Source: Candidatus Gastranaerophilales bacterium
Lineage (GTDB): Bacteria; Cyanobacteriota; Vampirovibrionia; Gastranaerophilales; Gastranaerophilaceae
Direction: 5' to 3'
Assembly (NCBI GenBank): GCA_944325885.1
Contig: CALVBT010000005.1
Coordinates: 62,001 to 126,000, forward strand
DNA length: 64,000 nt
Shown: piece after piece, positions 7,161 to 45,860 of the stretch
How the letters are laid out: every line of letters starts with the position of its first letter
Numbering within the stretch: position 1 is the stretch's first letter
Notes under the pieces: generated by a model
What the model was told of the DNA's origin: nothing
The model's database searches: none
Seen by the model: only the letters and a program-made list of their open reading frames with translations
Translations under genes and position numbers: made by a program

Positions 7161-8372
7161 ATGGCAGAAATAGCACTTGTAGATTGCAACAACTTTTTTG
7201 TTTCCTGTGAACAACTTATGAATCCCGCACTCAGAAACAGAGCGGTCTGCGTTTTGAGCAACAATGACGGATGTATAATTGCACGCTCAAAAGAAGCAAA
7301 ACAAATGGGAATCCCCATGGGCTACCCGCTTTTTAAAGCAAAAAAAGAATTCAAAAACGTAATCTATATTTCCAGGAACTTTGGCCTGTATCACGATATT
7401 TCAAAAAGAATTATCCTCAAACTAATGAGCTATACTCCGGAAGTTGAACAATACTCAATAGACGAAGCTTTCTTGGATTTGACAGGGCTAAAAAAACTTT
7501 ACCGCTGTTCTTACGAAGAAATAATTGCAAAAATAAAAACAGAAATAGAAGCAGAAATCGGAGTGCCTGTTTCAATAGGGCTTGCGCCAACAAAAACACT
7601 GGCAAAACTTGCCTGTGAAAAAGCAAAAAAAGACAAAAACCTAAACGGACTCTGCCGCATCTACAGACACGACATTGACGAAATACTAAAACGCACACAG
7701 ATAGAAGATATCTGGGGAATAGGAAAAAACTCTGCAGCACTGTTTCACAAATACGGGATTTATAAATGCAGCGAAATTGTAAAACAAAACGACTTCTGGC
7801 TGAAAAAAATCTGGGGTAAAAGAGGGCTGGAACTCAAAATGGAACTGGCAGGAGAAAGTGCAAACCCCGTCCAGAGCAAAATAGAACTGCCAAAATCCAT
7901 TCAAAAAACCAGTGCTTTTTCTCATTTTACGCAGGACAAAGACTATATAAAAGGCTCATTGCACTACCATTCGCATCAGGTATGCTCAAAATTGCGCAAA
8001 CTCGGACTGCAAACGGAAATTATATTTGTTATGTTAAGGACAAAGGATTTTAGAGTATATACAGAAAAAATTGTACTGCCTGAACCGACAGACAGTGAAT
8101 TTCTTGTAAACCAGTATGCGGACAAGCTATTGGACAAACTTTATGACAAAAATATAATCTACCGTTCCTCAGGGATTTATGCGGACAAACTTTCGGAAAA
8201 AGCTTCTTCCCAGCTCTTTTTGTTCGAGGATGAAAAAACAAAAAAAGCTAAAAAAATTGCACAGGTCTGGGATAACATAGAAAAAAAATACGGCAGAAAC
8301 TCTTTCCAAATAGGGATAACAAAAGACCCGCAGGAGGAAAGCAAATTGCACGGACAAAATTTCTTTTCATAA
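7161..8372 (+). CDS. umuC: Error-prone DNA polymerase V catalytic subunit (UmuC, Y family)
   Basis: 403 residues. Palm-domain catalytic acids are visible: Asp8 in LVDCNNFFVSCEQ and Asp101-Glu102 in YSIDEAFLDL; the fingers carry NNDGCIIARSKEAKQMGIPMG and the thumb ALAPTKTLAKLACEKAK-like GLAPTKTLAKLACEKAK. The DUF4113-type C-terminus (KIAQVWDNIEKKYGR) distinguishes UmuC from DinB. It performs translesion synthesis past damaged bases. It lies 136 bp after a LexA/UmuD-like gene under the same palindrome-bearing promoter, so SOS-type induction is expected. Confidence 0.93.
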   Translation: MAEIALVDCNNFFVSCEQLMNPALRNRAVCVLSNNDGCIIARSKEAKQMGIPMGYPLFKAKKEFKNVIYISRNFGLYHDISKRIILKLMSYTPEVEQYSIDEAFLDLTGLKKLYRCSYEEIIAKIKTEIEAEIGVPVSIGLAPTKTLAKLACEKAKKDKNLNGLCRIYRHDIDEILKRTQIEDIWGIGKNSAALFHKYGIYKCSEIVKQNDFWLKKIWGKRGLELKMELAGESANPVQSKIELPKSIQKTSAFSHFTQDKDYIKGSLHYHSHQVCSKLRKLGLQTEIIFVMLRTKDFRVYTEKIVLPEPTDSEFLVNQYADKLLDKLYDKNIIYRSSGIYADKLSEKASSQLFLFEDEKTKKAKKIAQVWDNIEKKYGRNSFQIGITKDPQEESKLHGQNFFS

Positions 8373-8391
8373 AATCAATAAAAAAGGAAAA

Positions 8392-8412
8392 GGCTCTGAT
8401 GTTATCAGAGCC
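8392..8412 (-). terminator. Terminator of the glycine-rich prepilin gene
   Basis: Stem GGCTCTGAT (8392-8400) / ATCAGAGCC (8404-8412) with loop GTT. Read leftward it is followed by a T-rich run, so it fits the minus-strand prepilin gene that ends at 8485; a second inverted repeat CTAAACACA (8421-8429) / TGTGTTTAG (8461-8469) lies between the two. Confidence 0.65.
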
Positions 8413-8484
8413 ATATAATTCTAAACACATATATTTTTAAACTATAAACTATATAAGGATTGTGTTTAGATATATTTGTTATAC

Positions 8485-10485
8485 TTACCATTCGATGATT
8501 ACAGCGCCATAACCGCCTTTACCGCCTCTGCTATAAACACCTGGTGAATCAGATGCACTGCCGCCTCCGCCGCCTGCACCAAATGAAGTACCCGGACCTC
8601 CATCTTCTTCACAAATAGCAGGCTGAATAACAGGGGCTCCATCACTCATGACTTGCGTTGTTGTTATTTTATAATCAGCACAAACTTTTTCGTATTTAAT
8701 ATTGTCATCATTAAAACAAAGAGTATTTTTATAAATATCTTCATAATTTTTATAACCAGCAAATTCTGTCATTTCCTCATCACCATCATTAAATTCAGGG
8801 AAATGACCCTTTATTCTTGTCCAAGCAAGATGAGATGTCATAGGTGAACCTAACGAATAATTATTCTTAAAATAAGGATACAAGTCTAGTAATTCAAAAT
8901 AATTAACGATATCATTTCTTGATGTTCCTGCAGATTTGTTAAAAGGTGTAATATCCTCTGGCTGATTATTTCCTATAGATTGCTTCAACTCAATTTTATT
9001 GCCAACTTTTATAAAGCCCTTTGGTACAACCTCAATACCTGTTGACTCATCAACATTGTCCTCCTGTATCTTTGTTGTATTTGCATCAATAATATTACAT
9101 ACAACCTTTGTGCATGTTTTTTCTGCAACTGTTACAGGAACTGTCCCGCCAGGAATTACCTTCCTCGGAGTACAAGCAGGTGCTGGCGTACCACCACCCC
9201 TTAATGAAAATTGAGAATGTTCTCCATATGCAGGTTCTGTCAAAGTTTCATCAGCAAAACCGCCCTCGCCGCCGTATCCATAAAAGACTCTACCCTGAAC
9301 ATTTCCTTTCATGTTTTTTGCAATAACAGTTCCACCACGCTCTCCTGCATCAGCAACATCAGGGATTGTAACAACAACTTGCCCCTCTAATGATGGAACG
9401 AAATATGAGTTTGGAACTGCAGCTTTTCCACCACTACCAAACTTTTTCCATGTTTTTGCAACTATACCATACCCGCTAACACCTGCTGTTGCAGAGCTAG
9501 CTTTATGAGAGCCGCCATCTCCACCATTACCATATGTTGTAATGTTACCAGCAATATCCTTATATTGATTTATAGCTCCGGAGTTTGCAGGATCTTTAAA
9601 AGTATAATAATCGCCTTGTTTACCGTCTTTACCAGGCATACCAACAGCAAAGCCGTTTACGACTTCACCATTTATTTCCAGTGATGAATAATGTTCTGCA
9701 AATATTACATCTCGGCCATATCCTTTATCACCACCACGGCATTTCCATTTTGAGCAGCCTATAGAATCACCGCCTTGACCGCCTTGCACAACAATTTTTG
9801 TTTTATTGTCAGCACCTTCTGAATACATAAAAGAAGAATTACCACCATCTTCTCCTCTTGGATGACCAGTAGAATTACTCAAACCGCCATGGTATTCTCC
9901 GCCCTTGGGATTACCACCACCACCTATTGTCAATTTATATGATGTCCCTTTATATAAAGGGATAAATCCTTCAAAACGGCCGCCGCCACCGCCGCCGCCA
10001 CCTGTCCCAGAAGACTCACTTTGACCGCCGCCACCACCGCCGCCGCCAGCTATAACAATCACATCATACAAATCTGTACGCTCTGGAGAAAACGATGTAA
10101 CACCAGCGGATGTTTGTTTAGCAAGAACTTCTCTATAAGATTCACCATTACCGCCGCCACCGCCGCCGCCAACGACAGTAATTCCATACTGTTTGCCTCT
10201 TGATGTAGTAAATACACAAGAATCTTTATTTGTAGGTGTCCAAGTATCCGGATTATTTATATCCCCTTCACCAAGGTTTTTATCATAATAAACATACAAT
10301 CCTTGACTGTTTCTGGTACAAATCCACATACCTCTTGTTCCTAATGAAGGATCACGTTTTTTCTTTGTCAAAATCGGTATAGACGCTATTGTGATTAAAC
10401 ACACGATTAAAAGTGTAATCAACGCTTCTGCTAGCGAAAATCCTTGCTTTTCTTTTCGGCTGTTTTGCTTTTTGATATCTTTCAT
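8485..10485 (-). CDS. Very long glycine-rich type IV prepilin-like protein
   Basis: 666 residues. The N-terminus is a class III signal: a basic leader ending KEKQG, then the cleavage point G|F and FSLAEALITLLIVCLITIA with Glu at mature position 5, as needed by prepilin peptidase. After the helix comes a short Trp/Cys region (GTRGMWICTRNSQGLYVYYD), then about 350 residues dominated by GGGGGGG runs interspersed with Ser/Asn/Tyr stretches, and a Cys-containing C-terminal part (CTPRKVIPGG, CTKVVCN, CEEDGGPGTSFGAGGGGG). Ordinary pilins have 130-200 residues. It is probably exported through a type IV pilus/pseudopilus machine and may act as a surface adhesin or glycine-rich coat. It ends in its own terminator and has its own upstream region. 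The matching peptidase is encoded at 44877. Confidence 0.8.
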   Translation of the reverse strand: MKDIKKQNSRKEKQGFSLAEALITLLIVCLITIASIPILTKKKRDPSLGTRGMWICTRNSQGLYVYYDKNLGEGDINNPDTWTPTNKDSCVFTTSRGKQYGITVVGGGGGGGNGESYREVLAKQTSAGVTSFSPERTDLYDVIVIAGGGGGGGGQSESSGTGGGGGGGGRFEGFIPLYKGTSYKLTIGGGGNPKGGEYHGGLSNSTGHPRGEDGGNSSFMYSEGADNKTKIVVQGGQGGDSIGCSKWKCRGGDKGYGRDVIFAEHYSSLEINGEVVNGFAVGMPGKDGKQGDYYTFKDPANSGAINQYKDIAGNITTYGNGGDGGSHKASSATAGVSGYGIVAKTWKKFGSGGKAAVPNSYFVPSLEGQVVVTIPDVADAGERGGTVIAKNMKGNVQGRVFYGYGGEGGFADETLTEPAYGEHSQFSLRGGGTPAPACTPRKVIPGGTVPVTVAEKTCTKVVCNIIDANTTKIQEDNVDESTGIEVVPKGFIKVGNKIELKQSIGNNQPEDITPFNKSAGTSRNDIVNYFELLDLYPYFKNNYSLGSPMTSHLAWTRIKGHFPEFNDGDEEMTEFAGYKNYEDIYKNTLCFNDDNIKYEKVCADYKITTTQVMSDGAPVIQPAICEEDGGPGTSFGAGGGGGSASDSPGVYSRGGKGGYGAVIIEW

Positions 10486-10569
10486 ATTTGCTCCTTATAT
10501 AGACCCGTTATTTTCATCTTAAATCTATATTCGGAACTTTTCAGCCTATCTTGACATAATCCAGCGTCC

Positions 10570-10589
10570 CTTACCTTACCTTACCTTAC
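10570..10589. repeat. Pentanucleotide tandem repeat (CTTAC)x4 upstream of the prepilin gene
   Basis: Four perfect head-to-tail copies of CTTAC lie 85-104 bp before the prepilin ATG. On the coding (minus) strand a TTGACA-like hexamer at 10619-10624 precedes them, so the repeats fall near the transcript start or in the leader. Short tandem repeats at such a place can change copy number by slippage and alter expression. Confidence 0.6.
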
Positions 10590-10684
10590 AGAAGAGCTTA
10601 TCTGGCTTGACTTTCGGTGTCAATAAACTCGTGTTTACATTTTGTTACAAATTGTCTTTTTATTAAATTATCTTAACAAAAAGA

Positions 10685-17024: not shown

Positions 17025-19139
17025 ATGAACTTAGGCGCATTAGCAAGTTTACTAAAAAATAACGATATTTTAATGGCAATAGGTATTGTCATAATTGTTG
17101 CTATGATGATTATACCTCTGCCGCCGATGCTGCTTGATATTCTATTGACGCTAAACATCTCTCTTTCCGTAATAATTTTACTTGTCTGCCTTTTTATTAA
17201 AGAGCCTCTGGAGTATTCTTCTTTCCCGATAATACTTCTTGTTGCGACGATTTTCCGTCTTGGCTTGAACGTAAGTTCAACAAGGCTAATCTTGCTATAC
17301 GGGGCAGCAGGTGAGGTTATCAACTCTTTCGGACAATTTGTTGTCGGCGGCAACTACATTGTCGGTTTTATCATCTTTATCCTGCTTGTTGTTATCAACT
17401 TTATGGTAATCACAGGCGGTGCAACAAGGGTTGCGGAAGTATCCGCAAGATTTACATTGGACAGTATGCCGGGTAAACAGCTGTCCATCGACGCAGACCT
17501 CAACTCGGGGCTTATTAACGAAGATCAGGCAAAAGCAAGACGAAGAAAGCTGGAAAGAGAAGCCGATTTCTACGGTACCATGGATGGTGCGTCAAAGTTC
17601 GTAAAAGGTGATGCCACAGCAGGTATCATCATCACAGTCGTAAACATCTTTGCCGGTATTGTAATAGGTATGTGGCAGATGAAAATGGACATCATGACCG
17701 CACTAAACACATTCACCATCCTGACAGTCGGCGACGGACTTGTTTCTCAACTCCCTGCACTCTTAATCTCTTTTGCAACGGGTTTAATCGTATCAAGAGC
17801 CAGCGGACAGGAAGAATCTCTGAGCGATGACATCAAAAAAGAAATGTTCTCAAACCCGATAGTACTGGCTATTGTTTCCGTACTTCTGTTTCTTTTAGGC
17901 ATGGTTCCCGGCATGCCGACATTGCCTTTTATCATTGTATCTCTGGCTATAGGCTGGCTTGCATACAGCAAAAACAAAGTTGAAAAAGTCAAAAAAGAAG
18001 AAGAAGTAAAAGCTGCCCAAGAAGCCCAAAAACAAGAAAGCGGACTCGGCAAAGTGGCAAAGAAAAAGAAAAAAGCCACAAGAGAAAGCGTCATGGAGCT
18101 TTTGAATGTAGAAACTATCGAAATGGAAATAGGCTACAGGCTCGTACCGCTTCTTGATGTAGAGCAGGGCGGAGATTTGCTCGAAAGAATTGCACAGATA
18201 AGAAGACAAACTGCTCTTGATTTGGGTATAGTTCTTCCGTCCATAAGGGTAAGGGACAATTTGCAGCTTCCGCCTAACAGTTATCAAATAAAACTGAAAG
18301 GCGTGGCAATAGAAAGCGGAGAAGTATATCCGGACAGAAGTCTTGCCATGAATGCAGGCGGCTCTGACAATGACCTTGGCATCAACGGAATCAGTGCTAT
18401 AGAGCCGGCGTTTGGTCTTCCTGCAATCTGGGTCGAAGAAAAAGACAGAGAAATTGCCGAAAACTACGGCTACACTGTAGTAAGCCCCTCTGCCGTAATC
18501 TCTACACACCTGACAGAAGTTATCAAAAAGAATGCGGCAGAAATTATCTCACGTGCTGATATTCAACAGCTCATAGACAATCTTAAAAAAGAAGTGTCAG
18601 AAGAATATGTTGCGGATTTGATGAAGGATTTGTCAGTTGCAGAAGTCCAGCAAATCATCTACAACCTGTTAAGAGAACGTGTTTCTGTCAGAGATTTAAA
18701 AACAATTCTCGAGGTAATAAGCCTGCAGTCCCGTGTAAGCAAAAACGCAGATTACCTGACAGAACAGGTAAGACAAGCACTTTCAAGAAGTATTTGCAAA
18801 CAAAATCTGGCAGACACAGGCGAGCTTTTGGCCGTAACACTGGCACCGGAAGTAGAAAACACTATTGCACAGGGTGTAAGCCCAGATGGCTCGAGTCTTA
18901 CACTCGACCCTGAATTTACAAGGCAGCTTTTGGACAATCTCAATTATGAACTCGAAAAAGCAATCTCCAGCTCAGGCAATCAGCCGGTGCTTTTATGTTC
19001 TTCTCCCATAAGGCTTCCGTTCAGAAGACTCATCGAAAGAACGTATCCACAAATTGCCGTTATGTCGTATAATGAAATCAGCAACAATGTAAAAGCAAAA
19101 TCAATAGGCGTTGTCAAAGTAGCTGCCGCAAGAGTATAA
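17025..19139 (+). CDS. flhA: Flagellar biosynthesis protein FlhA
   Basis: 704 residues: eight N-terminal membrane helices (residues about 15-320) and a cytosolic C-terminal domain. The FHIPEP family signature region is clear: RLGLNVSSTRLIL, VVGGNYIVGFIIFILLVVIN, TRVAEVSARFTLDSMPGKQ and ADLNSGLINEDQAKARR. FlhA forms the export gate ring of the flagellar type III apparatus and receives chaperone-substrate complexes. Here it is far from fliF-G-H-I (32932-37644) and instead leads a run of c-di-GMP and two-component genes. The ribosome-binding site is weak; GGGAAAGAG lies 14 nt before the ATG. Confidence 0.95.
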   Translation: MNLGALASLLKNNDILMAIGIVIIVAMMIIPLPPMLLDILLTLNISLSVIILLVCLFIKEPLEYSSFPIILLVATIFRLGLNVSSTRLILLYGAAGEVINSFGQFVVGGNYIVGFIIFILLVVINFMVITGGATRVAEVSARFTLDSMPGKQLSIDADLNSGLINEDQAKARRRKLEREADFYGTMDGASKFVKGDATAGIIITVVNIFAGIVIGMWQMKMDIMTALNTFTILTVGDGLVSQLPALLISFATGLIVSRASGQEESLSDDIKKEMFSNPIVLAIVSVLLFLLGMVPGMPTLPFIIVSLAIGWLAYSKNKVEKVKKEEEVKAAQEAQKQESGLGKVAKKKKKATRESVMELLNVETIEMEIGYRLVPLLDVEQGGDLLERIAQIRRQTALDLGIVLPSIRVRDNLQLPPNSYQIKLKGVAIESGEVYPDRSLAMNAGGSDNDLGINGISAIEPAFGLPAIWVEEKDREIAENYGYTVVSPSAVISTHLTEVIKKNAAEIISRADIQQLIDNLKKEVSEEYVADLMKDLSVAEVQQIIYNLLRERVSVRDLKTILEVISLQSRVSKNADYLTEQVRQALSRSICKQNLADTGELLAVTLAPEVENTIAQGVSPDGSSLTLDPEFTRQLLDNLNYELEKAISSSGNQPVLLCSSPIRLPFRRLIERTYPQIAVMSYNEISNNVKAKSIGVVKVAAARV

Positions 19140-32931: not shown

Positions 32932-34251
32932 TTATAAATTGATTTGATTACCCAGCGCAATAAGGCTCTCAACAGTCTTGTCATAGGTTGTTTTTTCATC
33001 AACAGCCTGCTGCAAAAACTGATTTATTTTGGGCATATATTTTATTGCCTGATCGGTAACAGCATCCGCACCGGACACATAAGCACCGATATTAATCAAA
33101 TCTTCATTCTTTTTGTATCCGGCAAGAAGCGTCCTGACCTTGCCTGCGGCAACGGCGTGTTCTTTGCTTGTAACTTCTTTCATTACACGGCTGACGCTTT
33201 GCAGCACGTCAACAGCCGGATAATGGTTTTTGTGAGCAAGTTCACGTGAAAGCATAATGTGTCCGTCCAGAATACTTCTCGCAGTATCTGATATAGGCTC
33301 GTTAAAATCATCACCCTCAACAAGAACTGTATAAAGCCCTGTAATTGTACCGTGTTCATTGCTGCCGGCACGCTCCAACAGCTTTGGCATAAGTGCAAAT
33401 ACAGAAGGAGTATAACCTCTTGTCGCAGGGGGTTCTCCAACAGCAAGACCGACCTCTCTTTGTGCCATAGCTATACGTGTAACACTATCGAGCATAAACA
33501 AAACATCTTTGCCCTGATCTCTAAAATACTCCGCAATGGCAGTTGCAACAAAACCGGCCTTTATCTTTACGAGTGACGGCTGTTCAGACGTAGCAACAAC
33601 TACAATAGAACGTTTCATACCCTCAGGGCCGAGCGTTGTTTCAATAAATTCTCTTACTTCTCTTCCACGTTCACCAATCAGTGCAATAACGTTCAAATCT
33701 GCACTGGTATTTTTTGCCATCATTGCAAGGGTCGTGGACTTACCTACACCGGAACCTGCAAACACACCCAATCTTTGACCTTTACCTGCCGTAATAAATC
33801 CGTCTATTGCTCTGATTCCAAGAGAAAGAGGCGTCCTGATGAGCTGCCTGTTCAACGGGTTAATAATTTCTGCCTGTGTAGAATACATTGATTGGGAATT
33901 AATTTCGCCGAGATTGTCAATAGGACGGCCAAGACCATCCAGCACACGGCCCAAAAGCTGCGGCCCGACTTTGATTTTCATGGAAGAACCGGTATTTACA
34001 ACAACAGCACCCGGCATAAGCCCTTCCATTGACCCCAGCGGCATCAGCAGTATTTTTTGCGCCTTAAAGCCTACAACCTCTGACCAGATAGGCTCGGCAT
34101 CCAGTTTGTTGTATATATAGCACAAATCGCCGATACTGGCTTTTGGCCCGTCAGCTTCTATGGTCAAACCGATAATCTGTGTAACCTTTCCGACCTCTTG
34201 CAGGGTATTTGTACTATTTATTATATTTTTATATCTCGTGAGGTTTATCAT
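32932..34251 (-). CDS. fliI: Flagellar export ATPase FliI
   Basis: 439 residues. Walker A GVFAGSGVGKSTTLAMM, IALIGERGREVREFIE, Walker B DVLFMLDSVTRIAMAQREVGLAVGEPPATRGY and the FliI/SctN-type LLERAGSNEHGTITGLYTVLVEGDD. It forms a hexamer at the base of the export gate and uncouples substrates from chaperones. Its start overlaps the end of fliH by 23 nt. The order on the minus strand is fliF-fliG-fliH-fliI. Confidence 0.95.
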   Translation of the reverse strand: MINLTRYKNIINSTNTLQEVGKVTQIIGLTIEADGPKASIGDLCYIYNKLDAEPIWSEVVGFKAQKILLMPLGSMEGLMPGAVVVNTGSSMKIKVGPQLLGRVLDGLGRPIDNLGEINSQSMYSTQAEIINPLNRQLIRTPLSLGIRAIDGFITAGKGQRLGVFAGSGVGKSTTLAMMAKNTSADLNVIALIGERGREVREFIETTLGPEGMKRSIVVVATSEQPSLVKIKAGFVATAIAEYFRDQGKDVLFMLDSVTRIAMAQREVGLAVGEPPATRGYTPSVFALMPKLLERAGSNEHGTITGLYTVLVEGDDFNEPISDTARSILDGHIMLSRELAHKNHYPAVDVLQSVSRVMKEVTSKEHAVAAGKVRTLLAGYKKNEDLINIGAYVSGADAVTDQAIKYMPKINQFLQQAVDEKTTYDKTVESLIALGNQINL

Positions 34252-35041
34252 TGCTGTCTTTTGGATAATTCTGCTGCTGATAATCGTCCAGCTCTCTGGA
34301 AAGCTCTATCTCCGGAACCGCATTCAATTCATTGTAGAGTTTTTGCGCATACTGTTCTATTTGCGTGCTGACCCTCGCATCTATTCTGGAGCCGACAGAT
34401 TCTACAATTGTTCCGTCCGGCGAAACAGAAGAATCTTCTATAATCTTTATATTTTCAAGATTGAATATTTTTTCTTTCAAATCATCTGATATTTGATAAA
34501 TCTTCTGTGCCATAACAGGGTTTACAATAATAGTCACATTCTCTTTTTCTTTAAGCTGAGTTATTGCATTCGACACAACATTAAGCAGCACATCCCTGTC
34601 TTTTAGCATATTAATTTTACAAATTTTTTCAGAAATAGCCAGCACAAGATCCAGAATATCCGTATGCAAAGATTTTATGATTCTGTGCTTCATATCAAAT
34701 TGACACTTTGCAAAATTGTTTACGTTAAAAACAAGGTCTTCCATCTCGGTGGTAATTTTTTCCTTACCGTCTTCATAACCTTCTTCAAAGCCCTGTTTTC
34801 TTGCATCAGCAGTAACTGCATCTTTAGATGCCTCTGCATCCTGTATAGCCGTACCGACAATTGTATTAGCCTGATTCTGCGCTTGAGCAAGGATTGCCTC
34901 TGCTTTTTTCTGCGCTTCTGCAATGATAGAATCCGCAATAAGCTGAGCATCCGTAATTTCTTTGTTCAAAACAGCTTTGCCCTCTGCATTCAGAACAAAG
35001 GACTTTCCGAGATTTACTTTGTCGCTTTCTATCCTACTCAA
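34229..35041 (-). CDS. fliH: Flagellar assembly protein FliH
   Basis: 270 residues. A long Ala/Gln-rich amphipathic helix (IIAEAQKKAEAILAQAQNQA) and GFEEGYEDGKEKI precede the C-terminal FliH/YscL domain (LLNVVSNAITQLKEKENVTIIVNP, SPDGTIVESVGSRIDARVSTQIEQ). FliH dimerises and holds FliI at the export gate and C-ring. Identification rests on these motifs and on its place between fliG and fliI, overlapping both. Confidence 0.88.
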   Translation of the reverse strand: MSRIESDKVNLGKSFVLNAEGKAVLNKEITDAQLIADSIIAEAQKKAEAILAQAQNQANTIVGTAIQDAEASKDAVTADARKQGFEEGYEDGKEKITTEMEDLVFNVNNFAKCQFDMKHRIIKSLHTDILDLVLAISEKICKINMLKDRDVLLNVVSNAITQLKEKENVTIIVNPVMAQKIYQISDDLKEKIFNLENIKIIEDSSVSPDGTIVESVGSRIDARVSTQIEQYAQKLYNELNAVPEIELSRELDDYQQQNYPKDSNDKPHEI

Positions 35042-36056
35042 TGTATTCGTCCTCAGCAGTATCTCTTGTTATAACAATTTCGCCGGCAGATTCCAATGCA
35101 CGGATAATACCAACAATTTTTGTTTGTTTTTCCTGTACTTCTTTTGCTCTGACAGGCCCCATGTATTCCAGTTCTTCTTTCAACATAGCCTGCGCACGCT
35201 CTGACATGTTGCTGTAAATTTTTTCTTTAATCTCTTCACGCACACCTTTTAAAGAAATAGCCAGATCTCTTGTTTCTACCTCACGGATAATCCTTTGTAT
35301 AGCGTTGTCTTTGAGTTGAATAATATCTTCAAATACAAACATCAACTCTCTTACGCCTTCAGCGAGTTCAAGGTTTTTGACCTCTAAGTATTCAAGAACA
35401 TTCTTTTCAGTAGCACGGTCTGAACGGTTCAAAATACTGGCAAGTGCGCCAACACCGCCGGCCTTTGAAAAGTCCTGCGCAACAACGGAAGAAAATTTGC
35501 TTTCTACAATTTTTTCTATTTCCGAAATAATTTCAGGGTTTGTAGAACTCATATCCGCAATCTTAAAAGCAACCTGAGCCTGAACCTCAGGCGGAAGGCT
35601 GTTCAATACTTTTGCAGAGTTTTCGGGTTTTAAATAAGCAAGAATCAATGCAATCAACTGCGGGTTTTCGTTCTGAAAAGATGTCGCAAGCTGCGAAGGA
35701 TCAGCGTCGTTAAAAAATTGAAAAGGGTTTGTTGTGAGCAAATTAACCAATCTGCCGAGCATATTTTGAGCTTGTTCAACGCCATAAGCCTTTTCTAACA
35801 ACGTTCTTGCGTATTGTGTACCGCCTGATGAAAGATAATCACTGGCTAAAAAAAGGGAGTGAAATTCCTCCAGAACTCTGTTCAAAATTTCAGAAGGCAC
35901 CTTGTTCAAACTCGCAATATCAAAAGTTATCTGCTCGAGAATGTCATCATCTTTTATATTCTTTAAAATTTCCGATGCCGTTGTGGGGCCTAGTGCTATC
36001 AATAATGCGGCAACTTTTTGCCTTTGCGTCATCGTTTCATAAGTCAGTTCCTGCAT
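35034..36056 (-). CDS. fliG: Flagellar motor switch protein FliG
   Basis: 340 residues with three Armadillo-like domains. N-terminal MTQRQKVAALLIALGPTTASEILK, middle QNENPQLIALILAYLKPENSAKVLNSLPPE (EHPQ-like motif as ENPQ), and the torque domain FVFEDIIQLKDNAIQRIIREVETRDLAISLKG with the charged helix contacting the stator. It forms the rotor/switch ring on FliF. It starts 7 bp after fliF and overlaps fliH by 8 bp. Confidence 0.95.
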   Translation of the reverse strand: MQELTYETMTQRQKVAALLIALGPTTASEILKNIKDDDILEQITFDIASLNKVPSEILNRVLEEFHSLFLASDYLSSGGTQYARTLLEKAYGVEQAQNMLGRLVNLLTTNPFQFFNDADPSQLATSFQNENPQLIALILAYLKPENSAKVLNSLPPEVQAQVAFKIADMSSTNPEIISEIEKIVESKFSSVVAQDFSKAGGVGALASILNRSDRATEKNVLEYLEVKNLELAEGVRELMFVFEDIIQLKDNAIQRIIREVETRDLAISLKGVREEIKEKIYSNMSERAQAMLKEELEYMGPVRAKEVQEKQTKIVGIIRALESAGEIVITRDTAEDEYIE

Positions 36057-36063
36057 TTTTTAT

Positions 36064-37644
36064 TTAGTCCTTAATATATGAAATCAATATTTTTGCAGCT
36101 TCCGAAGGATCTGCCATGATTGTATCCGTCAGGTCTGTTTTCAACTTATCCAGCTCGGGATTCAATTTAGCTTCTATCTGCGGCAGTGCTTCTACCTCAA
36201 ATTTGTCAATCAAATTGTCGGTAATAGTCTGCTGCTGTTCGTTGAACTCTTCATCAAAACTGTCACCCTCTGTAGATTTGCCGAACATTGAGCGGAATAC
36301 AAACAATGCCACAAGACCGAGTATCAATATTACAGACATCGGAACAAGTTTGTTCACAACAATTTCTTGAGTTTGAGCTGTTCTGAGAGCTTTTTCTTCC
36401 TTAGCTTCCTGAGCCTGATGCTGATCTTTAGCAGAAAATTCAAGGCTGGTGACATTGATAACATCGCCTCTGTTCAAATCCGCACCGCTGGCAGATGCTA
36501 TCAGTTTTTCAAGCTCCTGTTTTTCCTGAGTTGTAAGGATTTTATTTACTGCAACAGCAATGGTCATCCTTTTTACAGACCCCGGAGCATAAATTATCTG
36601 TTTAACTTCTTTTGATACAGCATAATTTGCTGCGGTTTTTTGTTTTTGATAATTAAGATTTTTTGGCTGCCCTGTCTGAGTGTTTACAGGCGGAGGGTTG
36701 TTTGTACCCGTAACAGCACCTGTTGTATTGGGGTTTGGATTTTCATAGTTTTCAGACTCTGTCTGAGTAGACATCAAAACACCCTGCTGTGTATCACCTA
36801 CAGGCACATAGCTTTCTATCGTAGAACGAGTAGAATTGAAATCAATATCCGCACTCACCTGCACAGACGCATTGTCCGCACCGACAATTTTGTCCAGAAC
36901 GTCTTGAATCTTTTTGGCAGTTTGAGTTTCAAAATTTGTTTTGTAAGTTTCTATGTCATTGGAATTTTTTTCTATATCATCAGAAAGATTGTTGCCTGAC
37001 TGGTCTGTCAAAAATACTCTCTCCGGAGTCAGCCTCGGGATAGCATAAGCAACAAGATTTTTTATAGCTTTTATTTGAGAAGTTTTTAACTTGTATCCGG
37101 GTTCCAAAATCAACATAACAGAAGCAGTCGGAGCCTCGTCACGTTCCTGAAAAACAGAACGTTCCGGATCCGCTATCTGCACTCTGGCTTTTCTCACACC
37201 GCTCATTCTTTCAATAGAACGGGTCAACTCACCCTGATAGATTCTTTGTTTTGTTAGTTTGTTTTTAAAATCAGTAGAGCCTAATTGCATGTCATCCAAC
37301 AGCTCAAACCCCGGAGAAGAATCCTGAATCAAATCATTTTCTGCAACATATATCCTCAATTCGTCCTGCAATTCCTGAGGAACGAGTACAGATTTTTTGT
37401 CAGCAGAAAGTTTGTAAGCATATCCGCTCTTTTTCAAACTCTCGGTAACTGCAGCAGCATCCTGCGGCGACAGGTCAGAATACAAAACCGACCAGTTTGG
37501 TTCCATTGATTTCATTATGAAAAAAGAAGCTATAATGAGCGTAGCAGCACTCAATACAACTATCCCGAATTTTTGTCCAATTTCTAAACCATTCCACAAT
37601 TTTGTTAAATCGTCCAGGAACAGCTTAAAATAATTATTTTCCAA
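36064..37644 (-). CDS. fliF: Flagellar MS-ring protein FliF
   Basis: 526 residues; membrane helices about 27-46 and 436-455 flank the periplasmic ring-building domains (NWSVLYSDLSPQDAAAVTESLKKSGYAYKL, RIYQGELTRSIERMSGVRKARVQIADPE, ASVMLILEPGYKL). The C-terminal tail binds FliG. The start codon is TTG (37642-37644) with GGGGAAG six nt upstream. It is the first gene of the fliF-G-H-I operon; the promoter should lie in 37645-37800, where only AT-rich sequence is seen. Confidence 0.94.
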   Translation of the reverse strand: MENNYFKLFLDDLTKLWNGLEIGQKFGIVVLSAATLIIASFFIMKSMEPNWSVLYSDLSPQDAAAVTESLKKSGYAYKLSADKKSVLVPQELQDELRIYVAENDLIQDSSPGFELLDDMQLGSTDFKNKLTKQRIYQGELTRSIERMSGVRKARVQIADPERSVFQERDEAPTASVMLILEPGYKLKTSQIKAIKNLVAYAIPRLTPERVFLTDQSGNNLSDDIEKNSNDIETYKTNFETQTAKKIQDVLDKIVGADNASVQVSADIDFNSTRSTIESYVPVGDTQQGVLMSTQTESENYENPNPNTTGAVTGTNNPPPVNTQTGQPKNLNYQKQKTAANYAVSKEVKQIIYAPGSVKRMTIAVAVNKILTTQEKQELEKLIASASGADLNRGDVINVTSLEFSAKDQHQAQEAKEEKALRTAQTQEIVVNKLVPMSVILILGLVALFVFRSMFGKSTEGDSFDEEFNEQQQTITDNLIDKFEVEALPQIEAKLNPELDKLKTDLTDTIMADPSEAAKILISYIKD

Positions 37645-44054: not shown

Positions 44055-44840
44055 TTGGCAGAATACATAAACTACGACGAAGTCAATATCTGGCTCAGCG
44101 AATACAGAAGCGCCAAAAAAGGACGCAAAAAAGAACAATTGCAGAACCTTATTGCAATTGCGACTATGCCTCTTGTCAAAAAAATTGCACGTACTCTTGC
44201 ACGAAGAAGTACCGACCCTATAGAAGACATTATACAGGTTGGCAGCCTCGGGCTTATTAAAGCAATCAGACTTTATGACCCTAAGGTAAGCAAAAATTTC
44301 AGATCCTATGCAACATACCTCATAACAGGAGAAATAAGGCATTATCTGAGAGATAAAGCAAACATGATAAAAGCACCGAGAGCTATACAGGAGCTGGCTT
44401 ATCGTGCGCACAAACTAACAATGGAAATGATTGAAGAAATTGGAGAAAAACCTTCTGATGATGTAATTGCCAACAAAATGGAGATTCCTGTTTCTAGATT
44501 AAAAGAGGCTATTGATGCAGACCGGAGGAAAACTACGCTTTCTTTAGACCAATTGACATATCAGGATGACGATGACAACTACTCAAACTGGGGTGACAAA
44601 ATTGCAGACCTCAGTTATGAAAGCATGGAATCACTTACCGAAGACAGAATGCTGCTCGCCGAATCATTGAAAAATATTGAACCAATTTACAAAGATATTG
44701 TAGAACTGACTTATTTTAAAGACTGGAGCCAGCTAGAAATTGCCAACAAACTCGGTTTGACACAAATGCAGGTTTCAAGAAAACTGAAAAAAGCACTAAA
44801 ACTGCTGCACAAAGTTATTGAAGAGCAACAAAACGCATAG
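44055..44840 (+). CDS. Group 3 RNA polymerase sigma factor (SigF/SigB-like)
   Basis: 261 residues with a TTG start and GAGAGG eight nt upstream. Region 2: PIEDIIQVGSLGLIKAIRLYDPKVSKNFRSYATYLITGEIRHYLRDK; region 3: IKAPRAIQELAYRAHKL; region 4: YKDIVELTYFKDWSQLEIANKLGLTQMQVSRKLKKALKLL. It most resembles the SigF type of Cyanobacteria, which controls motility and pilus genes, and the stress/FliA group. It is immediately followed by the prepilin peptidase gene. No anti-sigma gene is adjacent. Confidence 0.9.
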   Translation: MAEYINYDEVNIWLSEYRSAKKGRKKEQLQNLIAIATMPLVKKIARTLARRSTDPIEDIIQVGSLGLIKAIRLYDPKVSKNFRSYATYLITGEIRHYLRDKANMIKAPRAIQELAYRAHKLTMEMIEEIGEKPSDDVIANKMEIPVSRLKEAIDADRRKTTLSLDQLTYQDDDDNYSNWGDKIADLSYESMESLTEDRMLLAESLKNIEPIYKDIVELTYFKDWSQLEIANKLGLTQMQVSRKLKKALKLLHKVIEEQQNA

Positions 44841-44876: not shown

Positions 44877-45860
44877 ATGACTTTATTCTGGACAATATAT
44901 TCATTAATTATAGGACTGTGCGTAGGAAGTTTTCTCAATGTGGTTGTACTTAGAGGTTTCAGCGGAGAGTCCATTGTGCTGCCGCCTTCTCACTGTCCGA
45001 AATGCGACCACAAACTCGCATGGTATGACAACATACCTCTTTTGTCATATTTAATTTTGCGTGGAAAATGCCGCTACTGCAGCGAAAAAATAAGCTGGCA
45101 GTATCCCGTTGTAGAACTGGTTACAGGGCTGGTTTTTGCAGGGATTTATTTTAAATATGCAAATGGCTCTTTTAACTGGAACACACTGTTTTTGTTAATT
45201 GCAGCGTGTCTGTGCATAGTTATGACGGTTTGCGATTTTAAAGAAAAAGTCATTTTTGATGTTCATGCATACATACTTGCCGGACTGGGCCTGATTTACA
45301 ACCTTTTTAACCTTTCCGGAGAAAACAGCACAAAAATAATTTTCTGGCTTTTAGGACACAAAATCGTCATATATCAGTCCTTTATCTATTCTATACTCGG
45401 GCTGATTGCCGGAGCTGCAGTTATGATAGCTATATCTAAAATTGCAAAATTTATAACAAAAAAAGACTGCTTCGGCGAAGGAGATGCATATATCCTCGGT
45501 GCGCTGGGTGCCTTTTTCGGAATTGTAAATGTTATTGTTATATTTATTTTGAGTATCTTTATCTGGGGCGGATTTTCCATTCCGGTATTTTTATACAAAT
45601 GGTTTAAAGAAAAGCAATACAAGTTATTAAGCAGCCTGCTTCTGTTTATTGTTGCTGTGGCTCTGTTTTTGACGGGAGAAGCCTTAAACATCTTCACCTC
45701 AAATTTATTCCAGTGGTTTACTTATATCCTTGTTGCGAGCATAGGTCTATACTGCTGCAAATTATTAATCAGCTCCATAAAAGAAAACAAAAATCCACTT
45801 ATTATCCCATACGGGCCTGCATTGATTTTCGGCGCATTTGTAATTGTGTTTTTATTATAG
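44877..45860 (+). CDS. pilD: Prepilin peptidase (A24 family) with methylation domain
   Basis: 327 residues, polytopic. The cytosolic zinc motif CPKCDHKLAWYDNIPLLSYL and CRYCSEKISWQYPVVE (two CxxC), and the two catalytic Asp in TVCDFKEKVIFD and FGEGDAYILGALGAFFG. It cleaves after Gly in type IV prepilins and methylates the new N-terminus. A substrate with a matching G|FSLAE site is encoded at 8485. It is slightly longer than usual, with an extra hydrophobic C-terminal part. Confidence 0.92.
   Translation: MTLFWTIYSLIIGLCVGSFLNVVVLRGFSGESIVLPPSHCPKCDHKLAWYDNIPLLSYLILRGKCRYCSEKISWQYPVVELVTGLVFAGIYFKYANGSFNWNTLFLLIAACLCIVMTVCDFKEKVIFDVHAYILAGLGLIYNLFNLSGENSTKIIFWLLGHKIVIYQSFIYSILGLIAGAAVMIAISKIAKFITKKDCFGEGDAYILGALGAFFGIVNVIVIFILSIFIWGGFSIPVFLYKWFKEKQYKLLSSLLLFIVAVALFLTGEALNIFTSNLFQWFTYILVASIGLYCCKLLISSIKENKNPLIIPYGPALIFGAFVIVFLL

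Follow-up and report, generated by a model that had tools for sequence, protein, structure and literature searches.

A Large Type IV Prepilin with an Apparently Nested Glycine-Rich Module in Candidatus Gastranaerophilales

The Gene and Its Product

The stretch of DNA analysed here (the window) comprises 64,000 nucleotides of a Candidatus Gastranaerophilales genome. On its minus strand, an open reading frame at 8485–10485, with its ATG at 10485, encodes the protein of 666 residues given in a preliminary description of the locus. That description stressed its unusual size, rightly so, since the ordinary prepilins of the same genome have around 180–263 residues, which makes this protein 2.5–3.7 times as long. 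It also held that the gene has its own terminator and control region. This agrees with a terminator-like hairpin with a T tail on the 3' side of the gene (8412–8392, minus strand), of a type for which 1.4 sites are expected by chance in the stretch scanned, and with the 261 bp on the 5' side, which belong to the gene: pyk ends before them, and the element that they contain recurs before other prepilin genes.

The first 45 residues read as a textbook type IV prepilin N-terminus. The leader peptide (residues 1–15; 10441–10485) is basic and reads MKDIKKQNSRKEKQG as far as Gly−1, after which the predicted cut at Gly15 would leave a mature protein starting FSLAEALITLLIVCLITIASIPILTKKKR, that is, with FSLAE and with Phe+1, Glu+5, and Pro+22. 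These three residues (F16, E20, and P37) are invariant across 20 aligned relatives, so the class III leader and pilin helix of the preliminary description stand. The N-methylation profile PF07963 gives 15.6 bits in a protein search and 20.7 bits in a genome search, both under its cut-off of 21.2, and it matches 14 of 20 family members at E ≤ 0.1. The leader is followed by the hydrophobic α1-N helix (residues 16–45; 10351–10440), which is defined by the alignment and which spans residues 18–35 in an AlphaFold2 model, and then by a short neck (residues 46–88; 10222–10350) with a conserved W.CT.NS motif. It is this neck of around 43 residues that separates the helix from what follows, and the full-length model is too poor to show a pilin head there. 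The extra C-terminal module belongs to Pfam family PF21722 (Gly_rich_2), which is not specific to pili, as is found in modular pilins. The signature therefore points to a modular type IV prepilin, which would be cleaved and assembled like others of its class.

The means for such processing and assembly are encoded in the genome. A prepilin peptidase gene of the A24 type lies in the window at 44877–45860 on the plus strand (A24_N_bact, 3.8e-36; Peptidase_A24, 2.1e-7), as had been claimed, and the genes for a secretin, an assembly ATPase (PilB/GspE), and a platform protein (PilC/GspF) share one operon in the genome of the window. The window also contains flagellar genes (at 17025–19139 and 32932–37644; by eye flhA, fliI, fliH, fliG, and fliF), and this organism seems to have them besides its type IV filaments.

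The Glycine-Rich Part as a Folded Domain

The preliminary description spoke of hundreds of residues of glycine runs. Glycine runs are indeed present, but the number was overstated: glycine makes up 118 of the 651 mature residues (18%), and its runs are discrete and lie between conserved strands and variable loops. The Gly_rich_2 profile matches the protein with 34.1 bits (3.8e-8; cut-off 24.3) and matches all 20 aligned members of the family. A search of the PDB with a family profile retrieves the glycine-rich domain of the Caenorhabditis elegans receptor ALK (7lir, 4.5e-7); a sequence search with the single protein of the window gave no significant match. PF12810 scores only 11 bits.

Residues 119–348 (9442–10131, minus strand; PF21722, 2.9e-9) form what we term the inner domain. 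An AlphaFold model of this part, built on an alignment of eight sequences, is of moderate quality (pLDDT 56, pTM 0.60, with most N-terminal core blocks at 61–87). Its best structural match is the receptor-binding domain of the tail fibre of cyanophage Pam3 (7ypx; Z 13.8, 3.0 Å over 167 residues), which has a TNF-like plus glycine-rich fold, followed by the tail tip of phage Bxb1 (Z 12.0) and by the glycine-rich domains of ALK and LTK (7lir, 7lrz, and 7nx3; Z 8.6–9.5, the best, 9.5, being to ALK), after which the score falls to Z 2.6. Among predicted viral structures, 168 match the model at E ≤ 0.001, and the best 50 of these are mostly named as glycine-rich domains. The gp38 adhesins of phages S16 and PP01 are not among the fold matches of the inner domain, which may nonetheless be of the gp38 fold. 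The full-length model has a pLDDT of 36 and is too poor to use.

The glycine-rich fold is known to serve in receptor binding in phages (PMC9608196, PMC12892980). Judged by profile and model, then, the glycine-rich part is a folded domain of a receptor-binding type (Gly_rich_2; TNF-like plus glycine-rich) and not a formless coat. This bears on an idea in the preliminary description, which saw in the protein either a surface coat or an adhesin. A structural coat or matrix, with a glycine-rich part that polymerises laterally round the cell and a pilin part that serves only for export, would suit a glycine-rich sequence and the many paralogues present in some genera. However, the glycine-rich part is globular and of a receptor type, has specific fold matches, and is no simple repeat, and most genomes have few and divergent copies; we consider such a coat very improbable and find it without support. 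The other half of the idea fares better, since the type of the domain, by analogy, favours an adhesin over a plain pilin.

Another possibility is that phage tail fibres were the source from which the module was captured, and that it now acts against phages or competitors, either as a decoy or in contact-dependent recognition. The nearest folds are those of phage fibre tips, as this would have it, but no defence context is seen around the gene, and ALK and giant viruses have the domain as well, so it need not have come directly from a phage; this is the least probable of the readings considered here. A phage origin of the whole gene was rejected: tblastn against phages gave no match, nor were viral relatives of the full protein seen in IMG/VR.

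Apparently Nested Domains and Variable Loops

The C-terminal half of the protein aligns to the inner domain except for the first strand and glycine run of the latter, which it does not have. These are matched by residues 89–118 (10132–10221), which lie ahead of the inner domain. When residues 89–118 and the C-terminal half were spliced together, the Pfam score rose in three relatives from 33.9 to 49.5, from 35.8 to 52.5, and from 16.1 to 37.8 bits, in one colinear match. With a model of the family, the mean gain was 11.4 bits and exceeded 5 bits in 16 of 20 members, compared with −0.8 bits for shuffled pieces and +0.1 bits for the preceding 30 residues. The simplest reading of these gains is that a tip loop of one domain has received a second domain: there are probably two nested glycine-rich domains, with the inner one following the first strand of the outer. 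The protein of the window itself gained nothing in this test; the probable reason is that a further insertion of around 190 residues interrupts its outer domain, which is also divergent. Its nearest relative (L007) rose from 0 to 16.2 bits.

On this layout, the outer domain would consist of its first strand and glycine run (residues 89–118, assigned by the splice test), a second part (residues 347–440; 9166–9447), which is assigned by alignment and splice test, and a last part (residues 630–666; 8488–8598), which is assigned by alignment and has the conserved end GxGGxGxVIIEW. Between the latter two parts lies the variable insertion (residues 441–629; 8599–9165), recognised by alignment and identity profile in the long members only. 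It contains 5 of the 11 cysteines of the protein (458, 463, 590, 602, and 625), and Cys438 is at its edge.

The identity between the protein and its nearest relative is 53% overall but is unevenly spread: it reaches 73% in the helix, 69% in residues 101–170, and 82% in the last 34 residues, and falls to 30–44% in residues 241–330 and in the insertion (30% for residues 471–560). The loops are thus the most variable part and the glycine motifs the least variable. In the gp38 adhesins, a polyglycine lattice carries projecting variable loops that bind the receptor, and by this analogy a conserved core with variable loops is the pattern of a phage adhesin.

Distribution and Gene Neighbourhoods

The search for homologues of the same layout, also proposed in the preliminary description, was productive. 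Three further genes of identical layout are present among the more than 20 prepilin genes of this 2.17 Mb genome (19 contigs), which was covered by searches and by the reading of a small number of stretches. The protein finds a match in each of the 22 genomes of the same genus that were searched, and 21 of them have glycine-rich prepilins; in the other (G018), the sole match is an ordinary prepilin without the glycine-rich part. The gene is therefore real and a member of a family, and an artefact of low-complexity assembly is ruled out by paralogues and relatives of identical layout. Order-wide, Gly_rich_2 is found above its cut-off in 30 of 192 genomes, some of which have about a dozen matches, and many of the proteins that were read are prepilins. 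A first look at three genomes (G171, G173, and G174; loci L075, L076, and L078) revealed a large expansion, with up to 36 glycine-rich candidates per genome and frames of up to around 1000 residues.

In a sample of the phylum, Gly_rich_2 also occurs in other families of bacteria, where the six loci read (L104–L109) look like proteins of phage tails or secreted ones and have no prepilin leader. Two of these (L104 and L109), from one genome, are secreted or lipoprotein-like proteins with a single Gly_rich_2 domain and no obvious phage context. Small proteins of around 230 residues that match Gly_rich_2 were also seen (L101, and G000 C3:265941–266168), the former with an N-terminal membrane segment and a GxVxIQW end but no prepilin leader.

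In the genome of the window, the glycine-rich prepilin genes are dispersed single units. Relatives offer other arrangements: one operon (L038) encodes three glycine-rich prepilins (547, 798, and 482 residues) followed by a prepilin of 303 residues, and another locus (L041) has five consecutive prepilin genes, several with the same GxVIxW-like end motif. In another species (L008, 1501–5005), a glycine-rich prepilin gene adjoins a umuC-like gene in a relative orientation opposite to that in the window (7161–10485). A second glycine-rich prepilin gene lies downstream of scpA in two genomes (L004 and L036), a position kept between species.

These arrangements invite comparison with the minor pseudopilins of filaments that serve type II-like secretion or DNA uptake, where the module would cap or gate the filament, or bind a secreted substrate rather than an external receptor. 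Operons that combine the family with ordinary prepilins do resemble minor pseudopilin operons, and neither the leader nor the machine genes distinguish a type IV pilus from the pseudopilus of type II secretion. Against this, the fold match is to receptor-binding tips, and the variability of the loops, the multiple divergent copies per genome, and sizes of up to around 1000 residues fit a structural cap poorly. We therefore regard a pseudopilin as an unlikely alternative, though the strongest of those considered.

The Upstream Region

The region upstream of the gene contains a conserved element, TTGACNNNNAAA-N11-TAAGCTCTTC (10591–10623, minus strand), which may be written with one degenerate base as TTGACNNNNAAA-N11-TAAGCTYTTC. 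It is followed directly by a pentanucleotide repeat, (GTAAG)x4 (10569–10588, minus strand), which contains GGTAA boxes and is the only perfect repeat of a 4–8-mer with at least four units in the 64 kb window. The element is found in many species of the genus, mostly without mismatch (including L009, L010, L012, L017, and L124–L147), where it precedes glycine-rich prepilins, ordinary prepilins, a protein of 92 residues, and a LysM protein. Among 16 distinct copies of the element, the number of RTAAG units varies from two to five, one copy at a contig end being cut inside the repeat.

A paralogue (L003) with only 45% protein identity has a leader region that is identical to that of the gene at all 149 comparable positions. 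This observation suggests a recent gene conversion. The contigs of this paralogue break in the repeat (C5:136074–136145, L118, and C13:1–77, L117, of G000), with ends inside or beside it, and C5 and C13 are probably neighbours.

In Synechocystis, cyanobacterial SigF acts at pilA1 through TAGGC (−32) and GGTAA (−12) (PMC2758279), positions from which we take a spacing of around 15. Among the 16 copies, TAAGC-N15-G[G/A]TAA is present where the repeat has at least three units and is lost where it has two. A gene for a group 3 (SigF/SigB-type) sigma factor lies in the window directly upstream of the peptidase gene (44055–44840, plus strand); its best NCBIfam match is PRK07408 SigF, at 2e-54 but below the cut-off of that family. 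A simple scan for σ70 promoters found no site on the strand of the gene in the upstream region. A regulatory RNA in the 5' leader was considered and rejected, with no credible Rfam match and a folding that is not unusual (z −0.7). We hypothesize that the element is a SigF promoter, or a phase switch. It is also conceivable, albeit doubtful, that both ideas combine, so that diversified receptor binders at the pilus tip, made of nested phage-fibre/ALK domains, would be phase-variable via slippage of the pentanucleotide, which duplicates a SigF-type −12 box. If so, gut Gastranaerophilales would have phase-variable, swappable adhesive pili.

Proposed Function

The reading that we favour, with a probability of roughly 0.6, is that of a modular minor pilin with an adhesin as its tip module, in which processing, location in the pilus, and adhesion are all inferred. 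The A24 peptidase would remove the leader, and the α1 helix would insert into a type IV filament. Where a pilin normally has its head, the protein would carry a tip module: two glycine-rich domains like those of phage fibres and ALK, one set within the other. The conserved glycine runs would form a packed core from which the long variable loops and the cysteine-containing insertion project, and both of these, by analogy, may attach to something on a surface: mucus or glycans of the host, for instance, another cell, or a particle. Several versions are encoded per genome, some, in relatives, in operons with ordinary prepilins, an arrangement that would suit a tip complex of minor pilins. Since the outer part of these oversized subunits resembles the receptor-binding tips of phage fibres, as well as the region of ALK that binds its ligand, this gut bacterium, a relative of the cyanobacteria, probably bears variable adhesive tips on its pili.

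Such a protein would offer a possible route of attachment for gut Gastranaerophilales, which are uncultured or hardly cultured. One recognition fold would then be common to phage fibre tips, to the animal receptor ALK, and now to type IV pili, and the nested design would let an adhesin grow longer through the addition of whole domains within its tip loops.

Relation to Known Systems

Adhesion modules grafted onto pilins have been described before and in diverse forms, with 264 architectures of modular pilins (PMC8179133) and a lectin in the case of PilC (PMC9934059). In Streptococcus sanguinis, PilB (vWA) and PilC (lectin) similarly have a class III leader and helix followed by an adhesion module that is not a pilin, and they are minor pilins of a tip complex, as is proposed here (PMC8179133, PMC9934059). 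Unlike these, the present protein has a Gly_rich_2 module, apparently nested twice, with no clear pilin head between.

As for the module, its inner domain has the TNF-like plus glycine-rich fold of Pam3 gp24, and it shares with gp24 and with the gp38 adhesins of the T-even phages PP01 and S16 a conserved glycine lattice with variable loops. The gp24 fold, in contrast, works as a trimer on a phage fibre, whereas here it is carried by a prepilin. The likeness to ALK/LTK is found in both profile and fold, yet in that case the domain is part of the ectodomain of an animal receptor kinase. The upstream element resembles the SigF-dependent pilA1 promoter of Synechocystis in its boxes (TAAGC and G[G/A]TAA here) and in the company of a SigF-like gene in the window, but differs in that the −12-like box is tandemly repeated, in two to five pentamer units.

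In the open-access literature searched, no paper was seen that describes a type IV pilin with a glycine-rich domain. The modular pilin is thus of a known kind, and what is apparently new is this module, and its apparently nested architecture, in a multi-copy family of the Gastranaerophilales.
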